Origin: Candidatus Cloacimonadota bacterium
GTDB lineage: Bacteria; Cloacimonadota; Cloacimonadia; Cloacimonadales; Cloacimonadaceae
Direction of reading: 5' to 3'
Assembly: GCA_028706475.1 (NCBI GenBank)
Contig: JAQWBI010000007.1
Span: 1-61,571, forward strand
DNA length: 61,571 bases
Positions 1,916-31,848 of this stretch are shown piece by piece (the first letter of the stretch is position 1; the number at the start of each line of letters is the position of its first letter). Position numbers and translations under genes: made by a program. The notes below the pieces were generated by a model. It did no database searches. It was not told the origin of the DNA and worked only from the letters and a program-made list of their open reading frames with translations.

Positions 1916-1916
1916 G

Positions 1917-14931: not shown

Positions 14932-15423
14932 ATGGCAGAGTATTGGTATATAGCCGAAGGTTTTGAAGAGCGGGTAAACAGCTATTTGACCCACAATGGC
15001 GAATCTGAGGTAGATATGATGTTTTCAGTACCGGAAAAGGACTTTAATACAGCAGGAAAGGGATCTTCCGAATTGAAGATCCTCCTGAAGCGATTGGGGG
15101 TAAATTCCGATATCCTACGCCGGATCGCGGTTGCCTCCTATGAAGCAGAGATCAACGTAGCCGCTCACTCCAAAGGAGGAATAATGCACAGTGCGGTTCA
15201 CGACGATTTTATCCACATTCGCTTTGAGGATGAAGGGCCTGGTATCAGTGACATCGAACAAGCCATGATTCCCGGTTTTTCTACCGCCGATGAGCTGGTT
15301 CGTGAACTTGGTTTTGGAGCTGGCCTTGGTTTACCAAACATCAAAAAAAACAGCGATGCCATGCATATTGTCTCTGAGCATGGTTCTTCCACCTTGGTGG
15401 AGTTCATAGTTTTCTTTTCTTAA
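14932..15423 (+). CDS. RsbW-like GHKL ATPase
   Basis: A 163-residue ATP-binding protein of the anti-sigma/serine-kinase type. The N-box lies in VASYEAEINVAAHSKGG near residue 65, the G1 box is FEDEGPGISD near 100, and GFGAGLGLPNIKKNSD near 125 is the G2 region. No dimerisation or histidine domain is present. In RsbW-type proteins such domains phosphorylate an anti-anti-sigma factor or bind a sigma factor; neither partner is encoded nearby. It begins six bases after the DRTGG gene. A role in signalling from the sensory hydrogenase next to it is inference. Confidence 0.82.
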   Translation: MAEYWYIAEGFEERVNSYLTHNGESEVDMMFSVPEKDFNTAGKGSSELKILLKRLGVNSDILRRIAVASYEAEINVAAHSKGGIMHSAVHDDFIHIRFEDEGPGISDIEQAMIPGFSTADELVRELGFGAGLGLPNIKKNSDAMHIVSEHGSSTLVEFIVFFS

Positions 15424-15428
15424 GCATT

Positions 15429-16715
15429 ATGAATAAGAAAGACAGCAAATACTTTCATGCCATACAGATCCTGGAAGACAACTGTACTGGTTGTACGGCT
15501 TGTGTGAGAGTCTGCCCCACTGAAGCCATTAGAGTGCGTGATCGCAAGGCGTATATAGATCCCTATCGTTGTGTGGATTGCGGCAATTGTGTAACTGCTT
15601 GCGAATTCCATGCTATCATTCCTTCCAGCGATCCCCTGGATATCATCAACAACTTTAAATACACTGTCGCCATTATTTCTTCCAGTTTCTTTGGTCAGTT
15701 TTCTGAGGACATCAGTTATGGTAATGCCAAGCAAGCCATCTTACAGCTTGGTTTTAACGAAGTAGCAGAAGAGGCGATGGTTACGGATTTCATGATCTCT
15801 GTGATTCGCCTGTACATTCGCGAACACCGGGATAAAAGGCCGATCCTCAGCAGCAATTGCCCCGCAGTAGTACGCCTTATTCAAGTGAAGTATCCTTCGC
15901 TCTTGCCCAGTCTGTATCATGAAGAAGCCCCTATGAGCATTTTAACCCGCTATTTGCGGGACAGAATCTCCAAGGAACAGCATTTGAACGATAATGAGAT
16001 TGGTATCTTTCTGATCGTACCCTGCGTGGCTCACGTTACAGCAGTACACCAACCTGAAGGAGCATACAAACACCTGCAGGATGGAGCTTTCTCTACTGGA
16101 ATGATCTATGGCAAAGTGCGCGAGATCATCAAAGATGTACAGAACAATCCACAAACCATCGATACTTATCCCCAAGGACTCGCTTGGGCGCTATCAGGAG
16201 TGCAGGCAGAACTGGTGGACACAGACGACATTCGCACTCTCTCTGTAAATGGCGTGGAAAATGTAATGGACATACTATCCAAAGTGGAAGATCACTATCT
16301 GGATCAATATGACTATATCGTTCTGAGAAGTTGCACAAACGGTTGTGTAGGTGGATGCCTGAACGTGGAGAATCCTTTTGTGGCAATGAGTCGCATCAAA
16401 AAGATGAGCAAAGAAGGTGAAGGAAGCGAGATCCATGTGGAAGAACTGGAACGTTTGCACGCTGCCGGAGAATTCTCAGTTTCCCCACTGGCTCCACGAC
16501 CCATTATGGAGTTGGATAAAGACATCAAGAAAGCCATTCAAAAGATGAAGAAGATCAACGAATTCCTCACGATGCTTCCCGGCTTGAATTGCAGCGCCTG
16601 TGGCAGCCCCACTTGTTACGCTCTGGCAGAGGACATTGTTTTGGGCAAAGCATCGATCGATGATTGCGTAGTCCTTCAACGCGGCAAGAGTAGCGATGCA
16701 GATGAAGATGAATAA
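15429..16715 (+). CDS. Sensory-type [FeFe]-hydrogenase-like protein
   Basis: A 428-residue protein. Residues 15-60 hold two [4Fe-4S] motifs (CTGCTACVRVCP and CVDCGNCVTAC). The H-cluster domain follows with altered loops: SSNCPAVVRL near residue 140, IVPCVAHV near 195 and RSCTNGCVGGC near 300. Four candidate ligand cysteines remain, but the proton-relay cysteine of the canonical TSCCP is Asn and the second-loop Lys is His. The C-terminus has a further Fe-S motif (CSACGSPTC plus a later Cys, near 390). Such divergent enzymes, placed beside GHKL and PHP proteins, are thought to be H2 or redox sensors rather than main catalysts. No PAS domain is fused here. Confidence 0.82.
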   Translation: MNKKDSKYFHAIQILEDNCTGCTACVRVCPTEAIRVRDRKAYIDPYRCVDCGNCVTACEFHAIIPSSDPLDIINNFKYTVAIISSSFFGQFSEDISYGNAKQAILQLGFNEVAEEAMVTDFMISVIRLYIREHRDKRPILSSNCPAVVRLIQVKYPSLLPSLYHEEAPMSILTRYLRDRISKEQHLNDNEIGIFLIVPCVAHVTAVHQPEGAYKHLQDGAFSTGMIYGKVREIIKDVQNNPQTIDTYPQGLAWALSGVQAELVDTDDIRTLSVNGVENVMDILSKVEDHYLDQYDYIVLRSCTNGCVGGCLNVENPFVAMSRIKKMSKEGEGSEIHVEELERLHAAGEFSVSPLAPRPIMELDKDIKKAIQKMKKINEFLTMLPGLNCSACGSPTCYALAEDIVLGKASIDDCVVLQRGKSSDADEDE

Positions 16716-16737
16716 TTAGAATAATAAGGATATTATT

Positions 16738-17079
16738 ATGAGCAAATTAAGCGACTACATTGTCAAGGTCAACGGCAAGAACCTTACTCCCGCTATGGAT
16801 CCGGAAAACATAGAGATATCCGGTGCGTATGTGAGCGATATGCTTAGCGATGTGATGGGTTCAGCAAAGCCAGACCAGGCTTGGATCACTATCATGAAGC
16901 ACATGAACGTGGTAGCTGTGGCGTCTATGACCGGAATCCCCGTGATTATCTTTGCCAAAGGGAATGTGCCTGATGATGCCGTATGCGACAAGGCTTTGGA
17001 AGAAGGCATCTGCCTGATAAGCAGCACTCTGGATACCTTCAGCCTGGCCGGAATATTGTATCAAACCTTGGGTCTATAA
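16738..17079 (+). CDS. DRTGG-domain protein (second copy)
   Basis: A 113-residue paralogue of the protein at 14578, with the same order of motifs: GAYVSDMLSDVMGSAKPDQA, then an alpha/beta core, GIPVIIFAKGNVPDD, and CLISSTLDTFSLAGILYQTL at the end. AAGGATATTATT precedes the ATG. It follows the sensory hydrogenase and precedes the PHP protein, the order seen in other bacterial hydrogenase accessory blocks. The ligand is unknown. Confidence 0.82.
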   Translation: MSKLSDYIVKVNGKNLTPAMDPENIEISGAYVSDMLSDVMGSAKPDQAWITIMKHMNVVAVASMTGIPVIIFAKGNVPDDAVCDKALEEGICLISSTLDTFSLAGILYQTLGL

Positions 17080-17088
17080 CAACATCCC

Positions 17089-17832
17089 ATGCGCCTGATT
17101 AGCGCTGACCTGCATATACATAGCGTGTTATCTCCCTGTGGAGGCCTGGAGATGTCGCCTTCAGCGCTGACCGCCAGACTGAAAGCACTGCAAATAGAAT
17201 GGTTTGCCATCACAGATCATAATAGCATGGCAAATTGTCCTGCTTATGAGGCGGTTGCAAATAAAGCTGGAATTTCGTTTAGCTGGGGAGTGGAAATTCA
17301 GACTTTGGAAGAAATTCATCTGTTAGCCTATTTTGATAATCGGGAAATGGCATTAGCTTTTGATTCAGAACTCTATAAGTCATTATTGCCCATCGAAAAC
17401 GATCCTGAATACTTTGGAGATCAAGTTATCATTGACGAAAATGAGAACATTTTAAGAGTGGAATCTATTGCATTGATAAATTCCTCATCTTGGGATTTGG
17501 CCACTGCTACAGAACAGGTTTTAGCACATAACGGTCTACCTGTACCTGCTCATGTAGATGCTGAAGTAAACAGTGTTCTATCCCAATTGGGGTTTTTTCC
17601 TGTATATCCTGAATTTGAACTTTTGGGGATCACTGCGACATTGGATATGAACAGCTTTCTGTTACAACATCCCGAAATGGTGCAAAAAGCCTTTTTAAGA
17701 GCTAGTGATGCCCATTATCTTTCAGATTTAAAGCCCGGACTTTGTAAAGTAAATGCCAAGCAAGCCACCGTAAGCGAGTTGCTTGCGGCAGCCCGAAAGC
17801 AAGACGGTAGATTCATAGACTTTTACACATAA
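17089..17832 (+). CDS. PHP-domain phosphoesterase
   Basis: A 247-residue metal-dependent phosphoesterase of the PHP superfamily. Metal ligands are visible in SADLHIHSVLSPCGG near residue 5, FAITDHNSMAN near 39, GVEIQTLEEIHLLAYF near 64, PAHVDAEVNS near 155 and ASDAHYLSDL near 205. The family includes histidinol phosphatase and nucleoside 3',5'-bisphosphate phosphatases; the substrate of the hydrogenase-linked group is not known. It starts nine bases after the second DRTGG gene. A small phosphorylated signal as substrate would suit the sensory block, but that is inference. Confidence 0.85.
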   Translation: MRLISADLHIHSVLSPCGGLEMSPSALTARLKALQIEWFAITDHNSMANCPAYEAVANKAGISFSWGVEIQTLEEIHLLAYFDNREMALAFDSELYKSLLPIENDPEYFGDQVIIDENENILRVESIALINSSSWDLATATEQVLAHNGLPVPAHVDAEVNSVLSQLGFFPVYPEFELLGITATLDMNSFLLQHPEMVQKAFLRASDAHYLSDLKPGLCKVNAKQATVSELLAAARKQDGRFIDFYT

Positions 17833-17858
17833 AATTGAATGATAGACAAGGAGGAGTT

Positions 17859-18341
17859 ATGGCTTCCATAGCTCAAGACAAGAATCGTCTCTATGATCGC
17901 CTGGCAGAGGTGATCGAAGAAAAGAAGGATCTGCGTAATCCGCTGATCGAAGTTTTGCGTATAGCCCAGGAAATCTTTGGATACCTGCCGGTTGAAGTGC
18001 AAGAATTTGTTGCAGAAAAAATGAACATCCCCGCCAGCAAAATATACGGCGTGGTTACTTTCTACAACTTTTTCTCTATGAAACCCCGTGGCAAGTACAC
18101 ATTGAATGTATGCACCGGAACTGCATGTTTCGTGAAAGGTGCACCCCGACTCATCCAGATGATTTCGGAAGAGTTGGGTATCTCCATGGGCGAAACCACA
18201 AAAGACGGGAAATTTACGATGAGTGCAGTCCGATGCGTTGGAGCTTGTTCTCTGGCTCCTGTTTTTGTGATCGGAGAGGATACTTATGGGCGTAACGATA
18301 ACAAAGACAAGATCAAAGAAATCCTAAAACGTTACGAGTAA
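17859..18341 (+). CDS. hydC: NuoE/HydC-type [2Fe-2S] subunit (first copy)
   Basis: A 160-residue thioredoxin-like [2Fe-2S] protein, the small diaphorase subunit of NAD-linked [FeFe]-hydrogenases. Cluster cysteines are in CTGTACFVKGA near residue 90 and CVGACSLAP near 131. GVVTFYNFFSMKPRGKYT is the family signature. ATG 17859 is chosen over the upstream 17835 because AAGGAGGAG ends three bases before it. It passes electrons between FMN in HydB and the chain leading to HydA. A second NuoE-like gene lies at 21162. Confidence 0.92.
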   Translation: MASIAQDKNRLYDRLAEVIEEKKDLRNPLIEVLRIAQEIFGYLPVEVQEFVAEKMNIPASKIYGVVTFYNFFSMKPRGKYTLNVCTGTACFVKGAPRLIQMISEELGISMGETTKDGKFTMSAVRCVGACSLAPVFVIGEDTYGRNDNKDKIKEILKRYE

Positions 18342-18345
18342 TTCA

Positions 18346-18915
18346 ATGCAAGACATCTCTTTGCACCTATTAGATATTCTGGAAAACTCTGTAAGAGCAG
18401 GAGCAAGAAATATCAAGGTGCGCGTGATAAACAATGTGTTGAAGAATCGTCTGCGAATCATCGTTGAAGACGATGGCTCAGGGATGGATGCGTACACTCT
18501 GGAAAAAGCTCAGAATCCCTTTTATACTTCAAAAGAAGAACGAGTAAAAAAAGTGGGATTGGGCATACCATTGTTCAAACAGAATGCAGAAATCGTTGGC
18601 GGTTCATTCAAAATGGCCAGCGAGCCTGGCTTTGGCACTGTTCTTACGGTGGATTTCCCTTTGGATCACATCGACAGAATGCCTTTGGGAAATCTGAAGG
18701 ATACACTTCTGGGTGGCATCATAGGACATCAAGATGTAAATTTCTTTATCCACTTTCTTTACAAAGACAAGGCTAAAGAGCTCTGTTTCCATTTCGATAC
18801 CAAAGCTATTCGGGAGGAGTTGGGAGACATCCCTCTCACCTATCCCGATGTTATTGAATACATAGACCAATCTTTATATGAAGGAATACAAAATACAAAC
18901 ATGGAGGATGTCTGA
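18346..18915 (+). CDS. GHKL ATP-binding protein (histidine-kinase-type ATPase)
   Basis: A 189-residue protein with an N-terminal histidine-kinase-type ATPase domain: N-box HLLDILENSVRAGARNIKV near residue 7, G1 VEDDGSGMD near 45, and GLGIPLFKQNAEIVGG near 67 with EPGFGTVLTVDFP near 92. No phosphoacceptor domain is fused. The C-terminal ~80 residues are unassigned. It lies four bases after hydC, and its stop overlaps the next start (TGATG). This protein type is a regular member of HydABC-like operons; the phosphorylation target is unknown. Confidence 0.82.
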   Translation: MQDISLHLLDILENSVRAGARNIKVRVINNVLKNRLRIIVEDDGSGMDAYTLEKAQNPFYTSKEERVKKVGLGIPLFKQNAEIVGGSFKMASEPGFGTVLTVDFPLDHIDRMPLGNLKDTLLGGIIGHQDVNFFIHFLYKDKAKELCFHFDTKAIREELGDIPLTYPDVIEYIDQSLYEGIQNTNMEDV

Positions 18916-19280
18916 TGAAAACACTGGCAGACCTTAAGAAAATCCGTGAAAAAGCCCAGGAAGATATGAAGCTTCGTGGCGGAAACGTACGCATGAAGAT
19001 CGTGGTAGGGATGGGAACATCCGGAATCGCGATGGGTGCTCGTGAAGTGATGAAGACCTTCTTGGAAGAAATTGCAGCAAGAAATTTGACCGACGTTATG
19101 GTTACTCAGACTGGCGAAAAGGGTCTTTCTTCAATGGAACCGGTAGTGGATATCATCGAAGATGGCAAGCCAAAAGTAACCTATGGGAACATGAATCCCG
19201 ACAAGGTCAAAAAGGTAGTTGTCGAACATATCGTTAATGGCAGAGTCGTCTCCGACTATGTTGTCGCTACCGGCAACTAA
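18915..19280 (+). CDS. HndB-like thioredoxin-fold protein with no cysteines
   Basis: A 121-residue relative of the HndB/[2Fe-2S] ferredoxin-like subunit of NADP-reducing hydrogenases. The diagnostic frame is present: KIVVGMGTSGIAMGAREVMK near residue 29, TDVMVTQTGEKGLSSMEPVV near 60, and VEHIVNGRVVSDYVVATG at the end. Proteins of this type that bind a cluster carry cysteines in GTCG and TGCxGxC; here these are GTSG and TGEKGLS. There is not a single cysteine in the protein, so it cannot hold an Fe-S cluster. The ribosome site AAAGGAGGAG of hydB follows at once. A structural role is likely. Confidence 0.8.
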   Translation: MKTLADLKKIREKAQEDMKLRGGNVRMKIVVGMGTSGIAMGAREVMKTFLEEIAARNLTDVMVTQTGEKGLSSMEPVVDIIEDGKPKVTYGNMNPDKVKKVVVEHIVNGRVVSDYVVATGN

Positions 19281-19295
19281 AGGAGGAGTAAATAA

Positions 19296-21152
19296 ATGTC
19301 TCTGAAACGTATTGACCTTTTGATCTGCTGCGGTTCTGGTTGTGTTTCTGCCGGCGCACTCAAGATCAAAGAACGCTTTCACACTGTGTTGGCAGAGCAT
19401 AATCTTTCAAACGAAGTGAATATAATTGAAACCGGTTGCATGGGGCCTTGCGATTACGGCCCCGTGATGGTTGTCTATCCGGAAGGAATTTTCTACAAGA
19501 AAGTAAGCCCGGACGACGTCCCCGAGATCGTAACCGAACACTTCGTAAAAGGCCGCCCGGTAGCGCGCTTGATGTTGCAGGATGAGGATAAGACTTTTTC
19601 TGCCCAAAAAGACATCCCCTTCTACCAAAAACAAATTAAAGTGGCCTTGGAAAACTGTGGTTACATCAATCCCGAAAGTCTTGATGAATACATCGCAACC
19701 GGTGGATATGAAGCCATGGCAAAAATGCTGACCGAGATGAAACCTCAGGATGTCATTAATGTTATAAAAGAATCCGGTCTGCGCGGTCGCGGCGGTGGCG
19801 GATTCCCCACCCATATAAAATGGCAGATGGTTCACGACAATAAATCGGATCAAAAATACATCATTTGCAATGGAGACGAGGGTGACCCCGGTGCCTTTAT
19901 GGATCGTTCACTCTTGGAAGGTGATCCTCATCGTGTACTTGAAGGTATGATGATCGCCGCTTATGCTATGGGTGCTACCAATGGTTTCTTCTACATCCGC
20001 GCCGAATACCCGCTTGCCATCAAGAGAATCAAGATGGCTATTCAGCAAGCCAAAGATATCGGCTTGATGGGTACAAATGTGTTTAATTCCGGTTTCAATT
20101 TTGATGCTGAAGTGCGTACCGGAGCCGGAGCATTTGTGTGTGGAGAAGAAATGGCTCTGATCCACTCCATCGAAGGCCAACGTGGTAATCCCACACCCAA
20201 ACCACCTTATCCGGCGTTACAGGGTTTGTGGGGTAAACCTACCGTAGTGAACAACGTAGAAACCCTGGGTAATGTACCCACTATTCTACGTAGAGGTGCC
20301 AGTTGGTTTTCATCTATGGGCACCGAGAAATCCAAAGGAACCAAGGTATTTGCTCTTACCGGAGATGTTAATAACACCGGATTGGTGGAAGTACCTATGG
20401 GAATTACCCTGCGTGAGCTGATATTTGATGTTGGCGGTGGAATGATCGGCGACCATAAATTCAAAGCAGTGCAATTGGGCGGACCTTCCGGTGGTTGCCT
20501 TACCGTTGACCATTTGGATACTCCCGTTGACTACGAAAATTTGAAAGCACGTGGAGCAATGATGGGTTCCGGCGGTGTAATCGTGATGAACGAAGAAAAG
20601 TGCATGGTGAATGTCGCTAAGTTCTTTATGGATTTCTGCGTGGAAGAATCTTGCGGAAAGTGCTCACCCTGCCGAATTGGCCTGAAACAGATGCTGGAGA
20701 TTCTGGAACGCATCACCTCCGGATACGGTCGTGAAGGCGATATCGAAGAATTACTGCGCCTGGGTGAATCCATCAGCAAGCTTTCTCTTTGCGGACTGGG
20801 ACAGACAGCTCCCAATCCAGTGCTTTCTACCATCCGTTATTTCAGGGAAGACTATGAAGCCCATATTCGGGATCATAGCTGTAGCACCAAGGTGTGTAGC
20901 GATCTCATGCACTTCAAAATTGATAAGGACAGATGCATCGGCTGCTCTTTGTGTTCCAGAAAATGTCCTGCCAGCTGCATCAGCGGTAATCGCGAAGAAA
21001 AATTCACCATCCATCAATTGGATTGCGTGAAATGCGGTAATTGCTTTGATGTGTGCCCGGTAAAGGCAATCGACAAAGTGCCGGGAATGCATCCCGAAAT
21101 TGAGGCTCATAGAGCTAATATGGCGAAAGCCGCTCACCATTACGACGATTAA
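19296..21152 (+). CDS. hydB: NADH-binding subunit of [FeFe]-hydrogenase (HydB/HndC type)
   Basis: A 618-residue flavin subunit. In order: a thioredoxin-like [2Fe-2S] domain (LICCGSGCVSAGA near residue 9, ETGCMGPCDYGP near 45), the NuoF core with FMN/NADH site GLRGRGGGGFPTHIKW near 161 and CNGDEGDPGAFMDRSLLEGD near 190, a [4Fe-4S] site ESCGKCSPCRIG near 449, and a C-terminal ferredoxin domain with two clusters (CIGCSLCSRKCP and CVKCGNCFDVCP, about 548-590). All cluster cysteines are present. It oxidises NADH, probably coupled with ferredoxin in an electron-bifurcating or confurcating complex, as in related HydABC enzymes. Confidence 0.93.
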   Translation: MSLKRIDLLICCGSGCVSAGALKIKERFHTVLAEHNLSNEVNIIETGCMGPCDYGPVMVVYPEGIFYKKVSPDDVPEIVTEHFVKGRPVARLMLQDEDKTFSAQKDIPFYQKQIKVALENCGYINPESLDEYIATGGYEAMAKMLTEMKPQDVINVIKESGLRGRGGGGFPTHIKWQMVHDNKSDQKYIICNGDEGDPGAFMDRSLLEGDPHRVLEGMMIAAYAMGATNGFFYIRAEYPLAIKRIKMAIQQAKDIGLMGTNVFNSGFNFDAEVRTGAGAFVCGEEMALIHSIEGQRGNPTPKPPYPALQGLWGKPTVVNNVETLGNVPTILRRGASWFSSMGTEKSKGTKVFALTGDVNNTGLVEVPMGITLRELIFDVGGGMIGDHKFKAVQLGGPSGGCLTVDHLDTPVDYENLKARGAMMGSGGVIVMNEEKCMVNVAKFFMDFCVEESCGKCSPCRIGLKQMLEILERITSGYGREGDIEELLRLGESISKLSLCGLGQTAPNPVLSTIRYFREDYEAHIRDHSCSTKVCSDLMHFKIDKDRCIGCSLCSRKCPASCISGNREEKFTIHQLDCVKCGNCFDVCPVKAIDKVPGMHPEIEAHRANMAKAAHHYDD

Positions 21153-21161
21153 GGGGAGATT

Positions 21162-21617
21162 ATGTATAAAGAAATCTGCGCTAAATACGCCCCAACCAAA
21201 GACAACCTGATATATATCCTGCACGACATTCAGGATAGCCATCCGCAACATTATATATCCCCAGATGCGGTAAAGGCTATCTCTGAATACTTGAATCTGC
21301 CGGAGAACCATATTTATGGAGTACTTACATTCTACTCTATGTACTCCACCAATCCTCGCGGAAAAAACATCATCCGCCTCTGCGAATCCCCACCCTGCTA
21401 CATCAAAGGAAGCGAAAACATTCTGCGCAAGCTGAAGACCATCCTTGGTGTTGGAGTAGGTGAAACTACCAAAGACGGTAAGTTCACTTTGGAACTATGT
21501 GCCTGTCTAGGTGTTTGCGGAAACGCACCAGTTATGATGATCAACGAAGATGTGTATGGCGATCTCTCAGAAGAGAAAGTAGAAGATATTATCGAAAAAA
21601 TGAGAGGGAGGAACTAG
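21162..21617 (+). CDS. NuoE-like [2Fe-2S] subunit (second copy)
   Basis: A 151-residue paralogue of the protein at 17859 with cluster cysteines in CESPPCYIKGS near residue 74 and CACLGVCGNAP near 110. GVLTFYSMYSTNPRGKN is the family signature. AAGGGGAGA lies before the ATG. Its stop overlaps the GTG start of the second NuoF-like gene, so the pair is translationally coupled and probably forms a second diaphorase module. Confidence 0.9.
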   Translation: MYKEICAKYAPTKDNLIYILHDIQDSHPQHYISPDAVKAISEYLNLPENHIYGVLTFYSMYSTNPRGKNIIRLCESPPCYIKGSENILRKLKTILGVGVGETTKDGKFTLELCACLGVCGNAPVMMINEDVYGDLSEEKVEDIIEKMRGRN

Positions 21618-23179
21618 TGAAATACTTTCGCTCTCATGTGCTGGTAGGCATAAATGAAACATCCGTAGCTGCCGGTGTACACAGCTTTGTGAAAGCTCTG
21701 AGAGCTGAACTGAGCAAAACCGGCTTGAGTGACGAAATAAACATTTTAGAAACCGGTCCCCTTGGCTTCTTTGGTAAAGGAATCTGCGTTACAGTGTATC
21801 CGGATAACATCAACTACGAGAACCTAAAAGAAGAACACATCACCGAATTGGTGCAAGAACACTTTCTGAAAGGTCGTCCTGTAGCACATCTCTTATTGGA
21901 ATCTGCCGGAAAGTTCAGCCCCAAGTTGAATTACAATAAACGTATTGTATTACGTAATTCCGGAATCATCGATCCCGAAAAGATAGATGACTACATTGGC
22001 ACTGGTGGTTACGAAGCTTGGGAAAAAGCTTTGACCAAAATGGAGCCCAAACAAATCGTAGATGAAGTAAAGAATTCCGGATTGCGCGGTCGCGGCGGCG
22101 CAGGTTTCCCTACCGGCGTAAAATGGAGCTTTACTGCACCGCTAGAGACTGAACAAAAATATGTGGTTGTGAATGCTGACGAAGGCGAGCCTGGAACCTT
22201 CAAAGACCGTTTGATAATGGAAGGTGATCCACATCAACTCTTGGAAGGAATCATGATCTGTGCTCGTGCCGTTGGCGCTACAAAAGCATATATCTATATT
22301 CGCGGTGAATACAAACTCTGCATTCAGCGTTTACAGAAGGCTATTGATGATTGTAAAAACTATGGCATCATAGGTAAAAACATCTTTGATAGCGGCTTTG
22401 ACCTTGATATTCAGATCAAGATTGGAGCTGGCGCATACGTATGCGGCGAGGAGACAGCGTTGATCGAGTCTCTGGAAGGAAACCGGGGTCACCCACGTTG
22501 GAAACCCCCGTTCCCAGGAGTGAAAGGCTTATGGCAGGCTCCCACAGTAGTGAACAACGTGGAAACCTTAGCAAACGTGCCTTTTATCATCGCTAATGGT
22601 GCCAACGAATTCAGTAAATATGGCACTCTCGAATGCCCTGGAACAAAGGTCTACACCATCCTTGGTGATGTAGCCTATCCCGGCCTTTGCGAAGTGGATA
22701 TGGGAACTACCCTTCGCACCATAATCAACGACTATGCCGGCGGCATGAAGAAGGGCTTTAAGTTCAAAGCCGCGCTGGTTGGCGGAGCTGCAGGTATGAT
22801 CCTGTCCGAACGTCTGTTGGATGTAAAGATGGATCTTGCCAGCCTGAATCAGTATTCAGCTGTTTTAGGCAGTGGCGCTATATTGGTGATGAACGAACAT
22901 CAAAGCATAGCAGATATGCTGTGGAGCATCCTACGCTTTTTCCGTCATGAATCCTGTGGAAAATGCGCACCCTGTAAAAACGGAACTCAACAGCTCTATC
23001 GCCTGATCACTAAAATAAAGAAAGGTGATGGTACTATGGACGATGTGGATCTGATGCTTAAAATCGCTGAAACAATGCAGCAAACTTCATTCTGCGCTTT
23101 GGGCCAATCTCCGATCATGGCTATTCGCAGCGCAATAGATAACTTCCGTGATGAATTCATCGCGATAACACAAAAATAA
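21617..23179 (+). CDS. NuoF-like flavoprotein (second copy, reduced Fe-S content)
   Basis: A 520-residue NuoF paralogue. The FMN/NADH core is intact (GLRGRGGAGFPTGVKW near residue 154; NADEGEPGTFKDRL near 185) and so is the [4Fe-4S] site ESCGKCAPCKNG near 446. The N-terminal thioredoxin-like domain is kept but its cluster cysteines are lost: VGINETSVAAG and ETGPLGFFGKG replace the Cys-containing motifs. The C-terminal two-cluster ferredoxin domain of HydB is missing. GTG 21617 overlaps the upstream stop; a longer reading frame from 21497 lies inside the previous gene and is rejected. Confidence 0.88.
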   Translation: MKYFRSHVLVGINETSVAAGVHSFVKALRAELSKTGLSDEINILETGPLGFFGKGICVTVYPDNINYENLKEEHITELVQEHFLKGRPVAHLLLESAGKFSPKLNYNKRIVLRNSGIIDPEKIDDYIGTGGYEAWEKALTKMEPKQIVDEVKNSGLRGRGGAGFPTGVKWSFTAPLETEQKYVVVNADEGEPGTFKDRLIMEGDPHQLLEGIMICARAVGATKAYIYIRGEYKLCIQRLQKAIDDCKNYGIIGKNIFDSGFDLDIQIKIGAGAYVCGEETALIESLEGNRGHPRWKPPFPGVKGLWQAPTVVNNVETLANVPFIIANGANEFSKYGTLECPGTKVYTILGDVAYPGLCEVDMGTTLRTIINDYAGGMKKGFKFKAALVGGAAGMILSERLLDVKMDLASLNQYSAVLGSGAILVMNEHQSIADMLWSILRFFRHESCGKCAPCKNGTQQLYRLITKIKKGDGTMDDVDLMLKIAETMQQTSFCALGQSPIMAIRSAIDNFRDEFIAITQK

Positions 23180-23197
23180 TACATGAGGAATAGAATT

Positions 23198-24982
23198 ATG
23201 GCTAAAAACGTCAACGTTTGGATTGATGGTCATCACCTGGAAGTTCCGGATACCACGACCATCATCGAAGCAGCCGACAAATACGGGATATATATTCCCA
23301 GACTCTGCTACCATCCTGATCTACCACCTACCGCAAACTGCGGAGTATGCGTTGTAGATATCGAGGGAAGCCCGGTTCCCAAACGTGCTTGCTGCACACC
23401 GGTTACAGAAGGTATGAAAATACACTCCAACAGCAAGAAACTGCGCTCATATCGCAAAACATTGGTGGAGATGATTCTCTCGAATCATGAAGTTATGTGC
23501 CCAACTTGTTCGGCAAATAATAAATGCGAATTACAGACCTTGGCAAACAACCTTGGTGTAGATCCTGATGCTCTGCCCAATATCCTAAAAAAGAAAGCCG
23601 TAGACTTCAGCTCTCCTTCCATTGTTCGCGACCCCAATAAGTGTATTGCTTGCGGACGCTGCATCACAGTATGCAATGAAGTGCAAACAGTGTATGCCCT
23701 AACCAATAGCGAGCGTGGTATCGGCAGCGAAGTGACTACCGCTTTTGGACTGGGTATGGCTAAAAGCCCCTGTGTAAACTGCGGTCAATGTACAGTTTAC
23801 TGCCCCACAGGTGCTCTGCGTGAAAAAAGCGAAGTCGATGATGTATGGGAAGCTATCTTGGATCCTGACAAGCATGTGATCGTGCAAGAAGCACCATCAA
23901 TTCGCGTATCTTTGGGAGAAGAATTCGGAATGCCGCTGGGCAGCGTAACTGCTAAGAAGATGTATGCAGCCCTTCGTAAGATCGGATTTGACAGCGTAAT
24001 GGATACGAACTTCACCGCTGACCTCACCATCATGGAAGAAGGTACAGAATTGGTGACCAAGCTGAAAGCCGGAGAAAAGCGTCCTCTAATCACTTCCTGT
24101 TCCCCTGGATGGATCAAGTTCATGGAAACCTATTTTCCCGATTTGGCAGATTGCGTTTCCACGGCAAAATCCCCGATGAGTATGTTTGGTGTGCTTTCCA
24201 AGACATACTATGCTCAGGAACATGGAATAGATCCTGCCAAGATAGTATCTGTAGCGATCATGCCTTGCACTGCAAAGAAATTTGAAGCCCGTCGTCCTGA
24301 AATGAACGACAGCGGATTCCAAGATACTGACTATGTACTTACTACTCGCGAGTTCTTGCGGATGATCAAAGAAGCCGGTATCGACTTTGCAAACATTCCT
24401 GATGAAGAACCAGACGAAGGTATGAGCTTCTACTCCGGAGCAGGAACCATCTTCGGTGCTACCGGTGGTGTGATGGAAGCGGCTATCCGCTCAGCTTACA
24501 CTCTGGTAACCGGAAAAGAACTGGAGAATGTAGAAATACAAGGCGTTCGCGGCCTTGAAGGCGTAAAAGAAGCTACTGTAAATATCCCCGGATTTGGTGA
24601 CTTGAAAGTTGCAGTTGCCCACGGTCTCAGTAATGCCCGTAAGGTGATGGATCGAGTTCGTGAAGGCTTGAAAACCAAAGGCGAGTCTCCCTGGCACTTC
24701 ATCGAAATCATGGCTTGCCCAGGTGGGTGCGTTGGCGGTGGTGGTCAGCCCTACGGCAATGACATCGCTTCCCGTGCACGTCGCGGTTTAGCTCTGTATG
24801 AAGAAGACAAATCGCTTCCAGTACGCAAGTCGCATCATAATCCAGAAGTACAGAGAATCTATGAACGCTTCCTTGGAGCTCCGAATTCTCCTCTAGCACA
24901 TAAGCTGCTTCATACTTACTACTTCAAACGTTCGATCAGCAATGGTCAGGTAGTTGAAGAAGTAACTCACAAACATCACTGA
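23198..24982 (+). CDS. hydA: Catalytic subunit of [FeFe]-hydrogenase
   Basis: A 594-residue H2-evolving subunit. The N-terminal [2Fe-2S] domain has CYHPDLPPTANCGVCVV near residue 35 and a later Cys. A His-ligated cluster follows (HEVMC, CELQ), then two [4Fe-4S] motifs (CIACGRCITVC and CVNCGQCTVYCP). H-cluster loops are TSCSPGW near residue 298, IMPCTAKKFE near 354 and EIMACPGGCVGGGGQP near 505. The first loop has Ser where group A enzymes usually have a second Cys. ATG 23198 is preferred over 23183 because GAGGAA lies nine bases upstream. It ends the operon; a terminator follows. Confidence 0.93.
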   Translation: MAKNVNVWIDGHHLEVPDTTTIIEAADKYGIYIPRLCYHPDLPPTANCGVCVVDIEGSPVPKRACCTPVTEGMKIHSNSKKLRSYRKTLVEMILSNHEVMCPTCSANNKCELQTLANNLGVDPDALPNILKKKAVDFSSPSIVRDPNKCIACGRCITVCNEVQTVYALTNSERGIGSEVTTAFGLGMAKSPCVNCGQCTVYCPTGALREKSEVDDVWEAILDPDKHVIVQEAPSIRVSLGEEFGMPLGSVTAKKMYAALRKIGFDSVMDTNFTADLTIMEEGTELVTKLKAGEKRPLITSCSPGWIKFMETYFPDLADCVSTAKSPMSMFGVLSKTYYAQEHGIDPAKIVSVAIMPCTAKKFEARRPEMNDSGFQDTDYVLTTREFLRMIKEAGIDFANIPDEEPDEGMSFYSGAGTIFGATGGVMEAAIRSAYTLVTGKELENVEIQGVRGLEGVKEATVNIPGFGDLKVAVAHGLSNARKVMDRVREGLKTKGESPWHFIEIMACPGGCVGGGGQPYGNDIASRARRGLALYEEDKSLPVRKSHHNPEVQRIYERFLGAPNSPLAHKLLHTYYFKRSISNGQVVEEVTHKHH

Positions 24983-25510: not shown

Positions 25511-26122
25511 TTACGAACCGGATGAGGGATGAATAGTATCCACTGGGCAACCTCTGAAAATCTTGGGGTCTATTCCAGTGCATTTACCGCAATTGATGCA
25601 TTTCTCGGGGTCAATATAGGCTTTCCCATCTCTGTAAGAGATAGCATGTTCAGGGCAGACTCTCAAACATAATCCACAGGATATGCAAGTAGAGGCATCC
25701 ACAACATTGTAAGCTTTTTCCTCAATTTCAGTTGCTTGTGTGGAATCAGGGGGATTCTGAGCAATGTCTGATTCCTGATTCTTGGTTGTAGGAGTTGCAA
25801 TATCTTCTCCCCCAGGTTTAGTTTGAGGGGCTTCTTTCTTTACTTCTTCCGTTATTTCAGGCTCTGTAGCAAGTGCAGTAACTTGCTCAACTGGATATTG
25901 AGCTTTATCATTCGGAATGGCAATAAATCCATCCACGCAGCGCTTGCAACCGATGCATTTCTCACTGTCAATCACTGCTTTACCATCTTCCATGTAGATG
26001 GCATTCACCGGACATACTATCTGTTCTTCACTTTTTGAAAACACACCTTGTGCAGCCGTTATCTGAATGATTGCCAACAGAAACATCAAGGCTACGATAA
26101 TGATTTGTAAGACTCTCTTCAT
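25511..26122 (-). CDS. Membrane-anchored or exported multi-[4Fe-4S] ferredoxin
   Basis: A 203-residue protein. The N-terminus (MKRVLQIIIVALMFLLAIIQ, then ITAAQG) is a signal peptide or anchor. The first cluster is made by a CPVNAI cysteine and CIGCKRC near residue 60. A Pro/Thr/Glu-rich linker spans about 75-135. The C-terminal dicluster domain has CISCGLCLRVCP near 147 and CINCGKC plus GCPV near 176-190. ATG 26122 is chosen because it overlaps the upstream stop (ATGA) and has GAGAGAG before it; a frame to 26161 is also open. Fe-S proteins exported by Sec are rare, so its side of the membrane is uncertain. Electron transfer with the polyferredoxin next door is likely. Confidence 0.75.
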   Translation of the reverse strand: MKRVLQIIIVALMFLLAIIQITAAQGVFSKSEEQIVCPVNAIYMEDGKAVIDSEKCIGCKRCVDGFIAIPNDKAQYPVEQVTALATEPEITEEVKKEAPQTKPGGEDIATPTTKNQESDIAQNPPDSTQATEIEEKAYNVVDASTCISCGLCLRVCPEHAISYRDGKAYIDPEKCINCGKCTGIDPKIFRGCPVDTIHPSSGS

Positions 26123-26886
26123 TGTTCTCTCTCTTTCGTGATAGTACCGTGTTTTGGGCATTTTTCGGCACAGCGATCACACATAATGCAATCAATTGAT
26201 TCCACGTATTCATCGCAAAGTATATCCAGATTCATGGGGCAATTCAGGTTACAAATACCACAATCCGTGCAACATTCCATGTTTCTGCGGATTTTCTTTC
26301 GTTTGATGCCAAACAAGCCGCCCAGGATTTGAGATACAATCAATAATGCGGCATAGGGACATAGAAAACGACACCAAAATCGTTCCAGAAATACTCCTCC
26401 TATCACAATGACCAATATGGTAAACAAGCCTAGATAAACCAATCTTGGCAGAAGCGATAGAGAGTAAAAGGGACATAATTTGATGTATAACCATGCAAAT
26501 CCGCAGATCACCAGAATGATACTAATACCCAGAACAAAATACTTGATTTTGTTCAGTTTACGTTCAGCAAAAAGGGGTATCTGCCGGAGCCTCTTTTTAT
26601 GGGTAATTCTATACAGCAGTTCTTGAATAGTACCAAGAGGACACACATAACTACAAAACACTCTGCCCCAAAACATGGCCAGAATCATGAACAGTATTCC
26701 GAAGAATATTCCCACAGAAGCTAAGCCAAGACTAAGTGTAAGTAGATTTCCCTTTAGCATACCAAAGCAGATTACCGCATATGGGCAGATACTGTGGATG
26801 GAGTTTTTGCCCAGAACAATCACACTTGTGAGAAATGCCGAAGTCAACACCAGAAAGAGAGTCTGAATCAGATTGCGTTTGCTCAT
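26119..26886 (-). CDS. NapH/NosR-type membrane polyferredoxin
   Basis: A 255-residue inner-membrane protein with about four or five membrane segments. The family CxxxCP motifs in membrane loops are present (CSYVCPLGTIQELL near residue 78 and CRFLCPYAALL near 172). The C-terminus has two [4Fe-4S] motifs: CTDCGICNLNCP near 205 and CIMCDRCAEKCP near 234. Proteins of this type pass electrons from quinol or cytoplasm across the membrane. Start and stop both overlap the neighbouring genes. No terminal reductase is encoded nearby, so the final acceptor is unknown. Confidence 0.82.
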   Translation of the reverse strand: MSKRNLIQTLFLVLTSAFLTSVIVLGKNSIHSICPYAVICFGMLKGNLLTLSLGLASVGIFFGILFMILAMFWGRVFCSYVCPLGTIQELLYRITHKKRLRQIPLFAERKLNKIKYFVLGISIILVICGFAWLYIKLCPFYSLSLLPRLVYLGLFTILVIVIGGVFLERFWCRFLCPYAALLIVSQILGGLFGIKRKKIRRNMECCTDCGICNLNCPMNLDILCDEYVESIDCIMCDRCAEKCPKHGTITKEREQ

Positions 26887-27125
26887 TACGGTTCTTTTAG
26901 AAAAGCCCTTCTTTGCAGTATATTCATCGCTTTCACTTTGGTTTTCACAGCTTCATGATATGCTGGGCGATGTTCCTCGCGATACACGCCTATGTAGTAC
27001 TTCTCAGTATCCAGTGTCAGTTTTCGAGCTTCTTCTGTGCTTTCCGGTACTTTGTCCATTATCACGCTCTTTTCATTGTAAAGCTCAAAGGTGTTATTGT
27101 GGCTTACAGCTAGCTTGGCAATCAC
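26886..27125 (-). CDS. Small protein of unknown function
   Basis: A 79-residue charged protein with no recognised family. Its stop overlaps the next ATG (TAATG), which favours a real gene. The start is unsure: GTG 27125 is the first normal start in frame, but the frame is open back to near the previous stop at 27200, reading LAIYIPSLSAAKLEKEQKKA, a helix-forming stretch, and AAGGAG lies about 20 bases before the GTG. A run of eight A sits at the same place, so a frameshift linked to a start nearer 27195 is possible. Confidence 0.5.
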   Translation of the reverse strand: MIAKLAVSHNNTFELYNEKSVIMDKVPESTEEARKLTLDTEKYYIGVYREEHRPAYHEAVKTKVKAMNILQRRAFLKEP

Positions 27126-27199
27126 CTGGACTGCTTTTTTTTGCTCCTTCTCCAGCTTTGCCGCAGATAGGGACGGTATATATATTGCCAGACAACACT

Positions 27200-29905
27200 T
27201 TATAATCCTTCAGGGTTTTTGATTGCTTCTATATAGGGCATGACATCATAATGAACTTGGGATTTAGCCTCAAGGAGCACCTGAATTGCTTCGTTATCCA
27301 AATCCGAGTTATCGGCCAGATACAAGGCTACTTGGGCAAAGGTAACTTCACTCGGAAAGTGCAGCATCCCTTTTTTGATAAAGCGAAGACTGTGTTCCGG
27401 TGCGTTATCCAACAGGTGTTGCAATACAAAGTGCACATAAATCTTCCAGCCTTCGTTATGGGGGAATATCACACGGTCCACAAAGGCTTCCAGTTCATCC
27501 CAGTCCTGTGTTTTTGTGTATATGGTGGTGTAGAATTCTGTGAGCTTGATTTCGTTGTCTATGAATATCTTGCTGCGATCGATGTAAGAACGGGCTTTTT
27601 CGGTATCTCCCATTTCTGCAAAGTGCGTAGCTGCTCTTACAAATCCTGATCCATAGTTCAATACAAGGCGGCGCATATTTTCATCTTTGAACACCTTGTC
27701 ATCTCCGATGGAGCGATATTCGTAAACAGTATCGATGTTTTTCAGCAATCTAGGGATGTTTTCCTGATCATCCCCTTTGATTGAGACCACGCGTGCCACC
27801 ATGCCTTCATTTCGACAGTAATCTTCAAATCCGATAAAACTCTCACAGGTTACGGCGAAGTAGATTGGTCTATGACCAAAATTGTCTTTGATGATCTTCA
27901 TTACTGCCTGGTCGGATATCCTGTAAAATGGCTCATTTGGACGCCATGTGGGAGTTGGTTCCAGCTCCACAGTAAAGGATCCGCTAGCCTCGGTGCCCGG
28001 AGCATACAGGTTTTGCTCAAGTCTGGATACATTCATTTTATCGATATCTTCATCCGACATATTGAACAACACGCCTTCCATATCTCTCAATTGACGTATA
28101 TACCATTCCGTGTTTAGCAAAGACAGGTTTGCCACCGATACATCCTTGCGAATCCCCTTTAGATACTTGTTCTTGTATTCCATGGCAATTTTCATCGCTT
28201 CAAGTGCTTGCTCGGAAGGTTGTACATCTTCAGCGGGATACATATACTCCCTAGCATGAGGATCTTTTACGGCCTGTGCATACCACAAGGGAAAGGTATC
28301 GTTATCTCCATTTGTAAAGATAATGGCATTTTCTTCCAGCGAATTCAGGAAATTCAAGCCATAATCCAGCGCTATGTATTCATGAGACCGATCGTGAACA
28401 TGGTATTGTGAAACCATGTTTCCTATGGGTAGAAGCAACATGATAGCCGCAAGGATATAACGAATGGAATGCTGTTTAAACAGATTTATGACTGCTAAAG
28501 CTCCGATACCGATCCAAATAGCCCACATATTGTATGCCACAACGAAGAAATAATCTCGGTCGCGCACCTCAGCATCGGACAGATTCATCACAAAAACCAT
28601 CACTACTGTTGTGAAGATAATGATGCTAAGGAAGTATTTGAAGCTATGCCTATTGCCTCTACGATGGAATATTGCTCCGGCAAAGCCTAGCAGGGCTATT
28701 AAGGCAGCACCAATGGATTTGCCCAGGAAAGATCCCATATTCACGATTGGTGCCAGTATCCCTTGAGGGAACCATTGCATACCGAAATAGCGGAGGAAGT
28801 GGAAACCCATTTGATCTTCGAAAAAGCTGGCTCTACGCTGAACAAAGCTGGTGTTACCGTATTGTTTCCGTAAGACATAATCCATAAAATACGGTAGGTT
28901 GCTGGGACGCCCTTCGTTGATAAAGGGGCGATCAGCGGCACGTACCATCAGATAGATATGGCTGGATACCCCTATTAAAACCAGAAGTGCGGAGCACAAC
29001 CAGAAACGTTTTCCGAATACATCACGCAATTCGTAAGCAAGAATAAACAAGGTGACAACTGCAAATCCCCATTTGTCAAAATCATCAACCGACAGAGACT
29101 TTCCGATGGCTCCGAAGATGAAATATCCAGCCAGGATAGCAAAGGTGTATCCTAATACCTTGAGCCAGAAATTCTCTTTTTTGATACCGTTTTGTAGTAA
29201 AGGGTAAACTACAATAAAGAGCACCGCAGGAGCTACTTGTAGCGCTGTTTGATGAACGCAAAAGCCCAGAAAGAACAGATACACAATAAGCAGAAGAATG
29301 TTTTGATGGCTGTAGTCTTCACTCTTTTCCACCCACACGAGAGTGAGCCAGAGGATCAGGTTCACAAAGAACACGAGTCCGGAATAGACTTCCGCTTCAA
29401 TGGCATTCATCCAAAAAGTGAAGGAAAAAGCAGTGTATAAAGCCGCAACTGTCCCAGCAAACATCGCTTCCCAAGCTTTTACCTTCATCATGCTTACCAG
29501 CTTCACTGTAAACAGATAGGTAAGCATCACTGCAAATGCAGAAGCCAAAGCGGAAATAAAAGCTGCTATCACCGCGTGAGATACAATGCCTCCCAAAAGA
29601 GCAACCAAAGCCCTACCAAATACTATATAAAAAGGATTTCCCGGGGGATGCGGCACACCTAATATACTGATGCACGTGGCATATTCTCCGCTATCCCAAA
29701 AACTCATGGTGCGGGCTTGAGTGCTGATATATACAGCCAATGTGAGAGCAAAGATCAGCCATGCGAGGATGCGATTGTGCAGGACGGAAACCAGGGCCTG
29801 AGGTTTCATGGGAGTGGTGTCCACAATACGCTGTGGTTCCGGTCTTACATATTCCATCTTTTTAGCTTGATTTAGTTTCTTTTTTATACTTTCGCTTTTC
29901 GGCAT
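27200..29905 (-). CDS. DUF2723-family membrane glycosyltransferase-like protein
   Basis: A 901-residue protein with a basic N-terminal tail, ten or more membrane segments over about residues 45-500, and a soluble C-terminal part. The family signature ARTMSFWDSGEYATCISIL near residue 64 and GVPHPPGNPFYIVFGRAL near 83 resembles the catalytic DSGE/HPPG region of DUF2723 and of eukaryotic TMEM260, a protein O-mannosyltransferase. It probably uses a lipid-linked sugar at the outer face of the inner membrane. It follows the ABC permease genes by 12 bases. The acceptor is unknown; the C-terminal region has repeat-like helices. Confidence 0.85.
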   Translation of the reverse strand: MPKSESIKKKLNQAKKMEYVRPEPQRIVDTTPMKPQALVSVLHNRILAWLIFALTLAVYISTQARTMSFWDSGEYATCISILGVPHPPGNPFYIVFGRALVALLGGIVSHAVIAAFISALASAFAVMLTYLFTVKLVSMMKVKAWEAMFAGTVAALYTAFSFTFWMNAIEAEVYSGLVFFVNLILWLTLVWVEKSEDYSHQNILLLIVYLFFLGFCVHQTALQVAPAVLFIVVYPLLQNGIKKENFWLKVLGYTFAILAGYFIFGAIGKSLSVDDFDKWGFAVVTLFILAYELRDVFGKRFWLCSALLVLIGVSSHIYLMVRAADRPFINEGRPSNLPYFMDYVLRKQYGNTSFVQRRASFFEDQMGFHFLRYFGMQWFPQGILAPIVNMGSFLGKSIGAALIALLGFAGAIFHRRGNRHSFKYFLSIIIFTTVVMVFVMNLSDAEVRDRDYFFVVAYNMWAIWIGIGALAVINLFKQHSIRYILAAIMLLLPIGNMVSQYHVHDRSHEYIALDYGLNFLNSLEENAIIFTNGDNDTFPLWYAQAVKDPHAREYMYPAEDVQPSEQALEAMKIAMEYKNKYLKGIRKDVSVANLSLLNTEWYIRQLRDMEGVLFNMSDEDIDKMNVSRLEQNLYAPGTEASGSFTVELEPTPTWRPNEPFYRISDQAVMKIIKDNFGHRPIYFAVTCESFIGFEDYCRNEGMVARVVSIKGDDQENIPRLLKNIDTVYEYRSIGDDKVFKDENMRRLVLNYGSGFVRAATHFAEMGDTEKARSYIDRSKIFIDNEIKLTEFYTTIYTKTQDWDELEAFVDRVIFPHNEGWKIYVHFVLQHLLDNAPEHSLRFIKKGMLHFPSEVTFAQVALYLADNSDLDNEAIQVLLEAKSQVHYDVMPYIEAIKNPEGL

Positions 29906-29917
29906 TAGGACTCCTTC

Positions 29918-30901
29918 TTATTCTTTCATTCCGCTACGGGAATAGCTGGCAATAATCTGCTTCTGAGCAAAGAAGAACAGGATTACGATCGGTAATATAC
30001 TGAATGTGGACGCAGCCATCAACAGGGTAGTCTGCGTGGAGGCTTCCTGGTTGAAATAGCTTAATCCCACTTGTAGAACTCTCAGTTCCGGACGGTTGAT
30101 CATTACTAATGGCCACATAAAACTGTTCCAGCTGGAGATTAATGAAAAAATTGATGCAGTGGCAATTACGGGTTTGGAAAGCGGAACTACGATGCGCCAC
30201 AGCATGCCAAAGGTGGAGCAGCCATCTATCGATGCGGCATCAAACAGTTCTTTGGGTAGAGACTTGAAATGCTGCCGAAAGAGGAAGATGGTAAAGATGT
30301 TTGCCATCCAGGGTATGATAAGCGCATTATAGGTATCCAACCAGTTCAGTTTATCCAATAGGACATAGGATGATATCATGTAGATTGGTTGAGGAACCAT
30401 CATCATGGACAGGAACAGATAGAAGAAGAAATCCCTTCCTTTAAACTCCATCCGGGCAAAAGCATAGGCCGATAACAAGGAAGTAAACAGCACTCCAATC
30501 AAACTAAGTAAAGACACATAAATGGTATTGTAAAAATACAATCCAAACGGTACTTTCTTGAAGGCTTTGATGTAGTTCTCAAAATGGAAGCTGGGTTTCT
30601 TGCGCACCAGCTTAATCTCGTCTGTAGGTACTTCCTTGTATTCCTCAACGATGTTCAAGTCCTCATCCAAAATGTGAATAATGCTTTTCTCACCTTTATC
30701 CATAACCAAAAGGATGCGTTCAGTCTGTCCGTTATTTTGCCACACATGATATTCCTCTTTGGGAATGAATAAGGTCTCTTGTTTGTTGAATTCACTTTGA
30801 GTCATCAGAGATGTGGAAAGCATCCATAAAAAGGGTACGACCATGGTCAATCCGAAAATAATCAGGATTGAGTAGGTGAGAATACTTCTTAATCTGTCCA
30901 T
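29918..30901 (-). CDS. Sugar ABC transporter permease (MalG type) with periplasmic insert
   Basis: A 327-residue inner-membrane permease with about six membrane segments. The ATPase-contact EAA loop reads DAASIDGCSTFGMLWRIVVP near residue 215. Between the first membrane segment and the core there is an unusual soluble insert (about residues 35-110, with ILLVMDKGEKSIIHIL), which ordinary MalG-type proteins lack. It follows its partner permease by 11 bases. Neither a binding protein nor an ATPase is encoded in the window, so the substrate cannot be named. Confidence 0.88.
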   Translation of the reverse strand: MDRLRSILTYSILIIFGLTMVVPFLWMLSTSLMTQSEFNKQETLFIPKEEYHVWQNNGQTERILLVMDKGEKSIIHILDEDLNIVEEYKEVPTDEIKLVRKKPSFHFENYIKAFKKVPFGLYFYNTIYVSLLSLIGVLFTSLLSAYAFARMEFKGRDFFFYLFLSMMMVPQPIYMISSYVLLDKLNWLDTYNALIIPWMANIFTIFLFRQHFKSLPKELFDAASIDGCSTFGMLWRIVVPLSKPVIATASIFSLISSWNSFMWPLVMINRPELRVLQVGLSYFNQEASTQTTLLMAASTFSILPIVILFFFAQKQIIASYSRSGMKE

Positions 30902-30912
30902 TTCATCCCCCC

Positions 30913-31848
30913 TTAATAATTAACGTGCTTTTCCATTCTGCGTTGGAAGATGGTAAGCGCAAGAATCAGGACAAACAAAGCTAGGGATACCGCACTGGCA
31001 TAGCCCATCTCTAATACATCGAATCCGCGTTCATAGATATAGTATACTATCAACTTTGTGGTATTTAGCGGCCCGCCTTTATCGGTCATCAGATATATCT
31101 GCGAGAAGGTTTGGAAGGTTGTGATAGTGGTCATGATCAAAACATAAAAAGTAGTAGGTGAAATTAGAGGAACAGTTACATTCCAGAACTGACGCGTTTT
31201 ACTGGCACCGTCTATCTCGGCAGCTTCATAATAGACCTTTGAGATGTTCTGTAGCCCAGCCAGGTAGATGATGGTGTTGTAGCCCAGTCCCTTCCATATG
31301 GTCATAATAATAATAGCAAACAGCGCTTGAGAGGGGCCGTGAAAGAACTGTGGCAGCTTCTCAAAGCCCAGGTTTTCAAACATAATCAGAAAAATACCCC
31401 GCGATTCAGACAACCATGCTTGTGGAGATATTCCGATAAAACCCAGGAAGGTATTCATCAATCCCGTTTGTTCGTTGAAGATCAGTTTCCATACTATAGA
31501 TACCGCTACCAAAGAGGTTACAAAGGGCATGAAATATACAATCCGAAACAGGCTTTTAAAGTACTTAATCTTGTTTAAAAGCACTGCAAACAGCAGAGAA
31601 AGCACGATGGTCGAAGGAACCAGGATAATCACTAACCAAAAGGTATTACCCATGGATTGCCAAAACACCGAATCCTGCATCATCTTGCTGTAGTTTTCCA
31701 AACCTATGAATCTTCCGGTTCCCTGAAGTGACCAATCGAAAAACGAGAGAATAAAGCTCATCACAATTGGTATCAAACGGAATGCCACCACAATTACCAA
31801 TGCTGGTAAAAGGTAGAGGTATGGAGAAATCTTCCATTTTGTTTTCAT
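30913..31848 (-). CDS. Sugar ABC transporter permease (MalF/UgpA type)
   Basis: A 311-residue permease with six membrane segments and the EAA loop EAAEIDGASKTRQFWNVTVP near residue 214. The start overlaps the stop of the upstream response regulator gene (ATGA). It pairs with the MalG-type permease just downstream. This belongs to the carbohydrate uptake CUT1 group by its length and EAA sequence. An ATPase and a binding protein must be supplied from elsewhere. Confidence 0.9.
   Translation of the reverse strand: MKTKWKISPYLYLLPALVIVVAFRLIPIVMSFILSFFDWSLQGTGRFIGLENYSKMMQDSVFWQSMGNTFWLVIILVPSTIVLSLLFAVLLNKIKYFKSLFRIVYFMPFVTSLVAVSIVWKLIFNEQTGLMNTFLGFIGISPQAWLSESRGIFLIMFENLGFEKLPQFFHGPSQALFAIIIMTIWKGLGYNTIIYLAGLQNISKVYYEAAEIDGASKTRQFWNVTVPLISPTTFYVLIMTTITTFQTFSQIYLMTDKGGPLNTTKLIVYYIYERGFDVLEMGYASAVSLALFVLILALTIFQRRMEKHVNY

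Follow-up and report, generated by a model that had tools for sequence, protein, structure and literature searches.

Cloacimonadota is a phylum nearly without TatC yet with ferredoxins that bear lipoprotein-type signals, which raises the issue of how extracytoplasmic proteins acquire their clusters. The locus considered here lies in the window, as the whole analysed stretch of 61,571 nucleotides is termed here, which derives from a Cloacimonadota MAG whose nearest named relatives (L009-L011) carry that phylum name. Two genes on the reverse strand form a pair. The first (26119-26886) encodes a NapH-like four-helix polyferredoxin of 255 residues with two CX3CP motifs and two C-terminal cluster motifs, as established from the open reading frame, a Fer4_5 match in Pfam (5e-17), an alignment and an AF2 model. 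The second (25511-26122) specifies a ferredoxin of 203 residues that was delineated by its open reading frame, translation and Fer4-type Pfam domains, with a hydrophobic signal or anchor at residues 7-24 and a linker at approximately residues 72-133. The latter frame was listed from 26161, and the internal ATG at 26122, which overlaps the napH stop codon as ATGA, was taken as the start. The 12 cysteines of the ferredoxin all lie within cluster motifs, with an N-terminal site formed by C37, C56, C59 and C62 and two complete C-terminal motifs besides, as read from the sequence; three [4Fe-4S] sites are predicted as a result. The pair is real, and an earlier sequence-only reading was correct in describing a NapH/NosR-type polyferredoxin coupled by overlap to a three-cluster ferredoxin with a signal-like N-terminus. 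That reading extended the interval to 27125, whereas 26886 is the end of the pair and the additional stretch is part of a korAB remnant.

The pair had been labeled an orphan. However, the short open reading frame between the upstream glycosyltransferase gene and napH has a match to PFO_beta_C just under the Pfam cut-off, and its stop codon TAA shares one base with the napH ATG. When the PFO_beta_C match, the reading frames and seven sister loci were compared, the segment at 26886-27195 (reverse strand) was recognized as a deletion remnant in which ~30 korA codons, beginning at a TTG start at 27195, are joined to ~70 korB codons. Against the proteins of L009, the start of the remnant matched KorA residues 1-22 (E=2e-5), KorA continued in the next frame after a frame change (6e-4), and the tail matched KorB residues 200-271 (E=2.6e-20). 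The frame change in the korA portion coincides with a run of eight A at 27135-27142 (reverse strand) read from the sequence. Comparison with sister korA and korB places the probable deletion joint, CACAATAAC, at 27093-27101 on the same strand. As CACAATAAC is similar to the codons for His-Asn-Asn in sister korA and also to those for Tyr-Asn-Asn in sister korB, the deletion likely arose between short similar stretches of the two genes. The junction of the KorA start with the KorB end implies that ~2.2 kb is missing, from approximately korA codon 33 to korB codon 203. On the evidence of these matches, korAB is deleted upstream of the pair in the window genome, and the deletion explains the orphan appearance.

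The surrounding gene order agrees with this assignment. A TMEM260-like glycosyltransferase gene (27200-29905, reverse strand; Pfam PF11028) is the upstream neighbor and directly precedes korA in sister genomes, and two ABC permease genes (29918-31848, reverse strand; Pfam PF00528 twice) form the conserved context farther upstream. Immediately upstream of the pair in L009, L010 and L011 are two genes of a 2-oxoacid:acceptor oxidoreductase, one for a gamma-alpha fusion and the other for the beta subunit; in L009 and L010 the glycosyltransferase and permease genes that precede these korAB genes correspond to those of the window. Within the genus, KorB was found in 11 of 12 genomes and was absent only from that of the window (G000); korA directly follows the glycosyltransferase gene in all 11 other genomes, and the pair follows korAB in seven of them. 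An error of assembly that merely simulates the deletion nevertheless was weighed, as the MAG comprises 90 contigs, the remnant contains a homopolymer frameshift and the korB tail shows no excess divergence from the sisters. This explanation is highly improbable. The joint is internal to a contig of 61.6 kb, orthologous korAB was not found elsewhere in the genome, where only paralogues were detected (best 40% for KorB and 30-34% for KorA), and korAB also is absent between the same neighbors in three genomes that belong to a different genus of the family, one of these genomes being a single contig. In these three genomes (G001, G003 and G008) the order glycosyltransferase-napH-ferredoxin is kept; korAB remnants were sought there and rejected, with best E-values of 0.48 or worse compared to 2.6e-20 in the window in the same search.

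The fate of the pair after the loss was assessed by divergence, omitting G040 as a near twin of G041 from the means. NapH of the window genome showed a mean identity of 0.615 to six sister genomes compared to 0.602 among the sisters, a divergence ratio of 0.97, and the corresponding values for the ferredoxin were 0.496, 0.487 and 0.98. Ratios for three neighboring genes were 0.84-0.95 and that for the dead korB tail was 1.04. Thus, there was no sign of decay in the pair by this measure, and neither was the korB tail accelerated. As the dead tail is as undiverged as the pair, too little time may have passed since the loss for purifying selection to be evident. The loss of korAB indeed looks recent on this comparison, which, along with the unaccelerated tail, is what would be anticipated if the pair were a non-functional leftover that forfeited its task with korAB and is beginning to decay. 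That account is improbable: both frames and all of the cluster cysteines are intact, the divergence ratios of the pair are unremarkable, and G001, G003 and G008 likewise retain the pair without korAB. For the window, the puzzle of an orphan pair gives way to a recent loss of an enzyme partner that is readable in the sequence.

The sequence-only reading also stated that no reductase or oxidase is nearby, which overlooked the korAB remnant, a convergent [FeFe] hydrogenase gene and a POR-type pair. The latter (314-2486, forward strand) comprises genes for a POR_N/TPP-binding protein and a POR gamma-type protein that probably constitute an indolepyruvate-type oxidoreductase. The [FeFe]-hydrogenase region (14932-24982, forward strand) converges on the ferredoxin gene and includes genes for a hydrogenase-like protein with an FeS domain (15429-16715), a histidine-kinase-type ATPase (18346-18915), NuoE- and NuoF-like proteins, and HydA (23183-24982).

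The relationship between the pair and korAB was surveyed in 124 Cloacimonadota genomes including G000. A NapH relative (E<=1e-20) was present in 77 genomes and KorB (E<=1e-70) in 23. A script located a same-strand ferredoxin frame within 700 bp of napH at 56 of 78 loci; no adjoining ferredoxin was found at 20 loci and two were cut by contig ends. The pairing of the two genes accordingly is not fortuitous. The script mistook a lipoprotein for the partner in L051 and a fragment in L098, accepted a mis-started frame in L118 and set wrong starts in L061 and L113. In every one of the 18 genomes that possess both NapH and KorB at these cut-offs, korB is directly upstream of napH. Conversely, KorB occurs without NapH in five genomes (G030, G035, G036, G042 and G044), in four of which another gene comes after korB, with the G044 contig ending ~470 bases on. 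NapH occurs without KorB in 59 genomes at the cut-offs used. Each module therefore can occur without the other, and the pair, as judged from this distribution, does not depend on KorAB. Other contexts also were noted. At 13 loci (L049, L050, L056, L059, L068, L070, L071, L072, L079, L081, L084, L117 and L119) napH without an adjoining ferredoxin directly follows an amidohydrolase-like gene (c6), an alternative partner context, and in several f1 genera (L096, L100, L102, L104, L106, L107, L109, L111, L113 and L116) a thiolase-like gene (c10) follows that for the ferredoxin; both genes were named by eye from sequence.

The constant adjacency of korB and napH where both occur suggests an alternative in which the ferredoxin is a cytoplasmic acceptor: its N-terminal helix would be a mere anchor with the clusters inside the cell, the protein would replace the missing delta subunit of KorAB and feed NapH or quinone, and export would be illusory in f1. 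The korAB clusters of the sister genomes indeed contain no delta gene. This possibility is rather unlikely, as the pair persists in the 59 genomes that are devoid of KorB, and KorB is kept without NapH in five. The topology of the ferredoxin bears on the same issue. The net charge of the window protein is +2 before the hydrophobic stretch and -1 after it, which is at odds with a cytoplasmic location of the clusters and disfavors an N-out anchor, the arrangement in which the sequence-only reading considered that the export puzzle would vanish. Among family f1 ferredoxins (n=28, starts set by eye), the charge favors an N-in orientation in 17, ties in seven and opposes it in four, and the charge after the helix also is positive in many of these proteins, as the cytoplasmic arrangement would predict. 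For the 56 ferredoxins that adjoin napH, the average net charge determined by script, with some starts mis-set, was +1.54 before the stretch and +0.20 after it; the charge was greater before the stretch in 35, equal in 13 and less in eight. Related ferredoxins in f10, f11 and f13 possess typical cleavable signal peptides as judged by eye, which also is difficult to reconcile with a cytoplasmic acceptor, and lipoprotein-type signals are borne by related ferredoxins in other families. No RR was evident in the window ferredoxin, and RR was present in the first residues of only one of the 56 related N-termini (L100). TatC exceeded the cut-off in 5 of 124 Cloacimonadota genomes compared to 11 of 14 control genomes, with none over the cut-off in the window genome or any of its genus.

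The charge bias, the signal peptides of the relatives and the scarcity of TatC together make Sec-type export the likelier path for the window ferredoxin. Export by a Sec-type route, as the sequence-only reading had it, thus is plausible, although the bias within f1 is weak (17, 7 and 4 of 28). The N-terminal anchor probably stays uncleaved in f1 proteins. Exported Fe-S proteins normally are folded in the cytoplasm and then moved by Tat. Extracytoplasmic clusters in the absence of Tat would need an additional loading step, which counts against the reading of the ferredoxin as an exported protein.

Conservation of NapH was examined in an alignment of 18 orthologues, in which 29 columns are invariant. 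These include C78/C82 and C172/C176 of the CX3CP motifs, all but one of the eight C-terminal cluster cysteines, and H31, C34, C40 and C138. The AF2 model (mean pLDDT 78.8) comprises helices at residues 3-25, 55-73, 114-137 and 151-166, and based on these helices H31, C34, C40 and C138 lie in loops opposite to the CX3CP motifs. Invariant cysteines accordingly are located on both faces of the membrane. As an idea only, an additional redox site could be formed by the four residues on the outer side of the modeled protein. The role of CX3CP in NapH, NosR and PceC is left open, leaning to disulfides, in the relevant part of a previous account (PMC5928378), and the motifs may form disulfides instead of clusters. 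At E<=0.001 the model matched nothing in the PDB. By sequence, solved structures aligned with the C-terminal part only, the best stretches starting at profile position 177 or beyond. The four helices and two CX3CP motifs are those of the NapH/NosR membrane module. In contrast, the protein scored 59.8 bits against the NapH/MauN family TIGR02163, below the cut-off of 213.05.

The pair shares with NapGH, the quinol dehydrogenase module of periplasmic nitrate reductase, a four-helix protein that bears two CX3CP motifs and has clusters at its C-terminus, and a multi-cluster ferredoxin partner which in the case of NapG acts outside. However, the window ferredoxin has a Sec-type rather than Tat-type N-terminus and three clusters, and the window NapH falls well short of the NapH model (59.8 versus 213). 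A nitrate or N2O reductase partner was considered and dismissed, no such gene being among the window neighbors. NosR, PceC (RdhC) and 'NapH-like' flavinylated systems resemble the pair in possessing a membrane module with CX3CP and, in the portion of the work consulted here, in modular use of partners (PMC8238504). A Pfam scan revealed no FMN-binding domain in or beside the pair and a flavinylated system was discounted. The delta subunit of 2-oxoacid:ferredoxin oxidoreductases is comparable in that the ferredoxin is encoded with korAB in sister genomes, but the pair ferredoxin differs in its hydrophobic N-terminus, its three clusters and the location of napH between its gene and korB. The L009 sister ferredoxin scored 36.1 bits against PorD_KorD, under the cut-off of 60.05, and this family was not among the 25 matches listed for the window ferredoxin. 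On these comparisons, the pair belongs to the NapGH/NosR kind of electron-transfer module, as a variant new to that kind.

More elaborate gene clusters are evident in distant relatives. In f10 and others, a secreted ferredoxin gene adjoins napH on one side or the other and is followed by that for a lipoprotein ferredoxin, in which fibronectin type III repeats, flanked on both sides by ferredoxin motifs, come after a lipoprotein-type signal. This FN3 lipoprotein (query P0003, E<=1e-15) was detected in 29 of 124 genomes, in f4, f7, f8, f10 and f13, and the same search returned none in G000 or any f1 genome. A lipobox-like signal was present at 26 of 30 loci in the 29 genomes, and two of the other four loci are cut at the start. 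As scored by script, the genes downstream encode a small secreted ferredoxin at 25 of 30 loci, a small lipoprotein-type ferredoxin at 23, a barrel-like protein at 18 and a DsbD-like protein at 18. All four components occur at 14 of 30 loci, several gaps being contig ends. The barrel was called by length, last residue and cysteine count, on the last of which G072 was missed. Both DsbD-like proteins that were tested matched PF13386; DsbD_2 was not found in the window genome or genus. The barrel family lacked a Pfam match in each of four proteins tested. An AF2 model of the barrel built from 12 sequences (mean pLDDT 82.8) consists of a signal helix and 20 strands, and matched 294 PDB chains at E<=0.001. 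The best 50 are all barrels of the outer membrane or ushers; among them, Mtr complex chain B ranked 48 with a TM of 0.43 and showed no special likeness. The napH gene is in the same cluster as the FN3 lipoprotein gene in 12 of the 29 genomes (11 of 30 loci by script, and L121 of G089), is alongside the cluster on the opposite strand in G053, and in the remaining genomes is elsewhere or was not found.

The cluster in these relatives parallels porin-cytochrome conduits (MtrCAB) in combining an inner-membrane donor, carriers, a lipoprotein and an outer-membrane barrel. It differs in that ferredoxins replace haem proteins and the barrel is without a Pfam match. Cytochrome c assembly (PF01578) was detected in 1 of 124 Cloacimonadota genomes compared to 9 of 14 controls. 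In the window genome the outer part of such a conduit was not found; it was recognized in relatives only. Taken with the genomic distribution, the pair probably forms, in our moderately confident view, the portion at the inner membrane of an envelope electron route based on ferredoxins, the outer part of which is absent here. We infer the chemistry, direction and acceptor of this route as follows. Oxidation linked to ferredoxin in the cytoplasm would deliver electrons into the C-terminal clusters of NapH, the source being KorAB in sister species and other enzymes in the window genome. The electrons would cross the membrane through NapH to the ferredoxin, which would be exported via the Sec-type route and remain membrane-anchored. 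In other families, the outer set of FN3 lipoprotein, small ferredoxins, barrel and DsbD-like protein could carry electrons through the outer membrane. As the outer set is absent from the window genome and genus, only the inner half would be present, and the task of the acceptor in the window genome most likely is reductive and periplasmic.

A broader proposal, which is tentative and has somewhat less than an even chance, is that an all-ferredoxin conduit spans the whole Cloacimonadota envelope in the order NapH, exported ferredoxin, small ferredoxins, and FN3 lipoprotein with barrel, and that the family of the window kept the inner half only. By maintaining cysteines in reduced form, the DsbD-like protein could allow clusters to be loaded on the outer side of the membrane after Sec transport. 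No ferredoxin-based outer-membrane route or comparable exported ferredoxins were found among the papers listed by searches of the open-licence PMC literature, preprints aside. Pilus genes have led to the suggestion that Cloacimonadota perform direct interspecies electron transfer, and the passages that make this suggestion give no envelope route alongside it (PMC7382037, PMC13082233). If correct, the ferredoxin conduit would substitute for cytochromes and for Tat, both of which the phylum almost lacks, and the suspected interspecies transfer would gain a molecular route and a testable answer. The FN3 lipoprotein and barrel cluster merits separate study; at its conserved loci (L156-L163 and L167-L183) the small secreted and lipoprotein-type ferredoxins are each ~80 residues.
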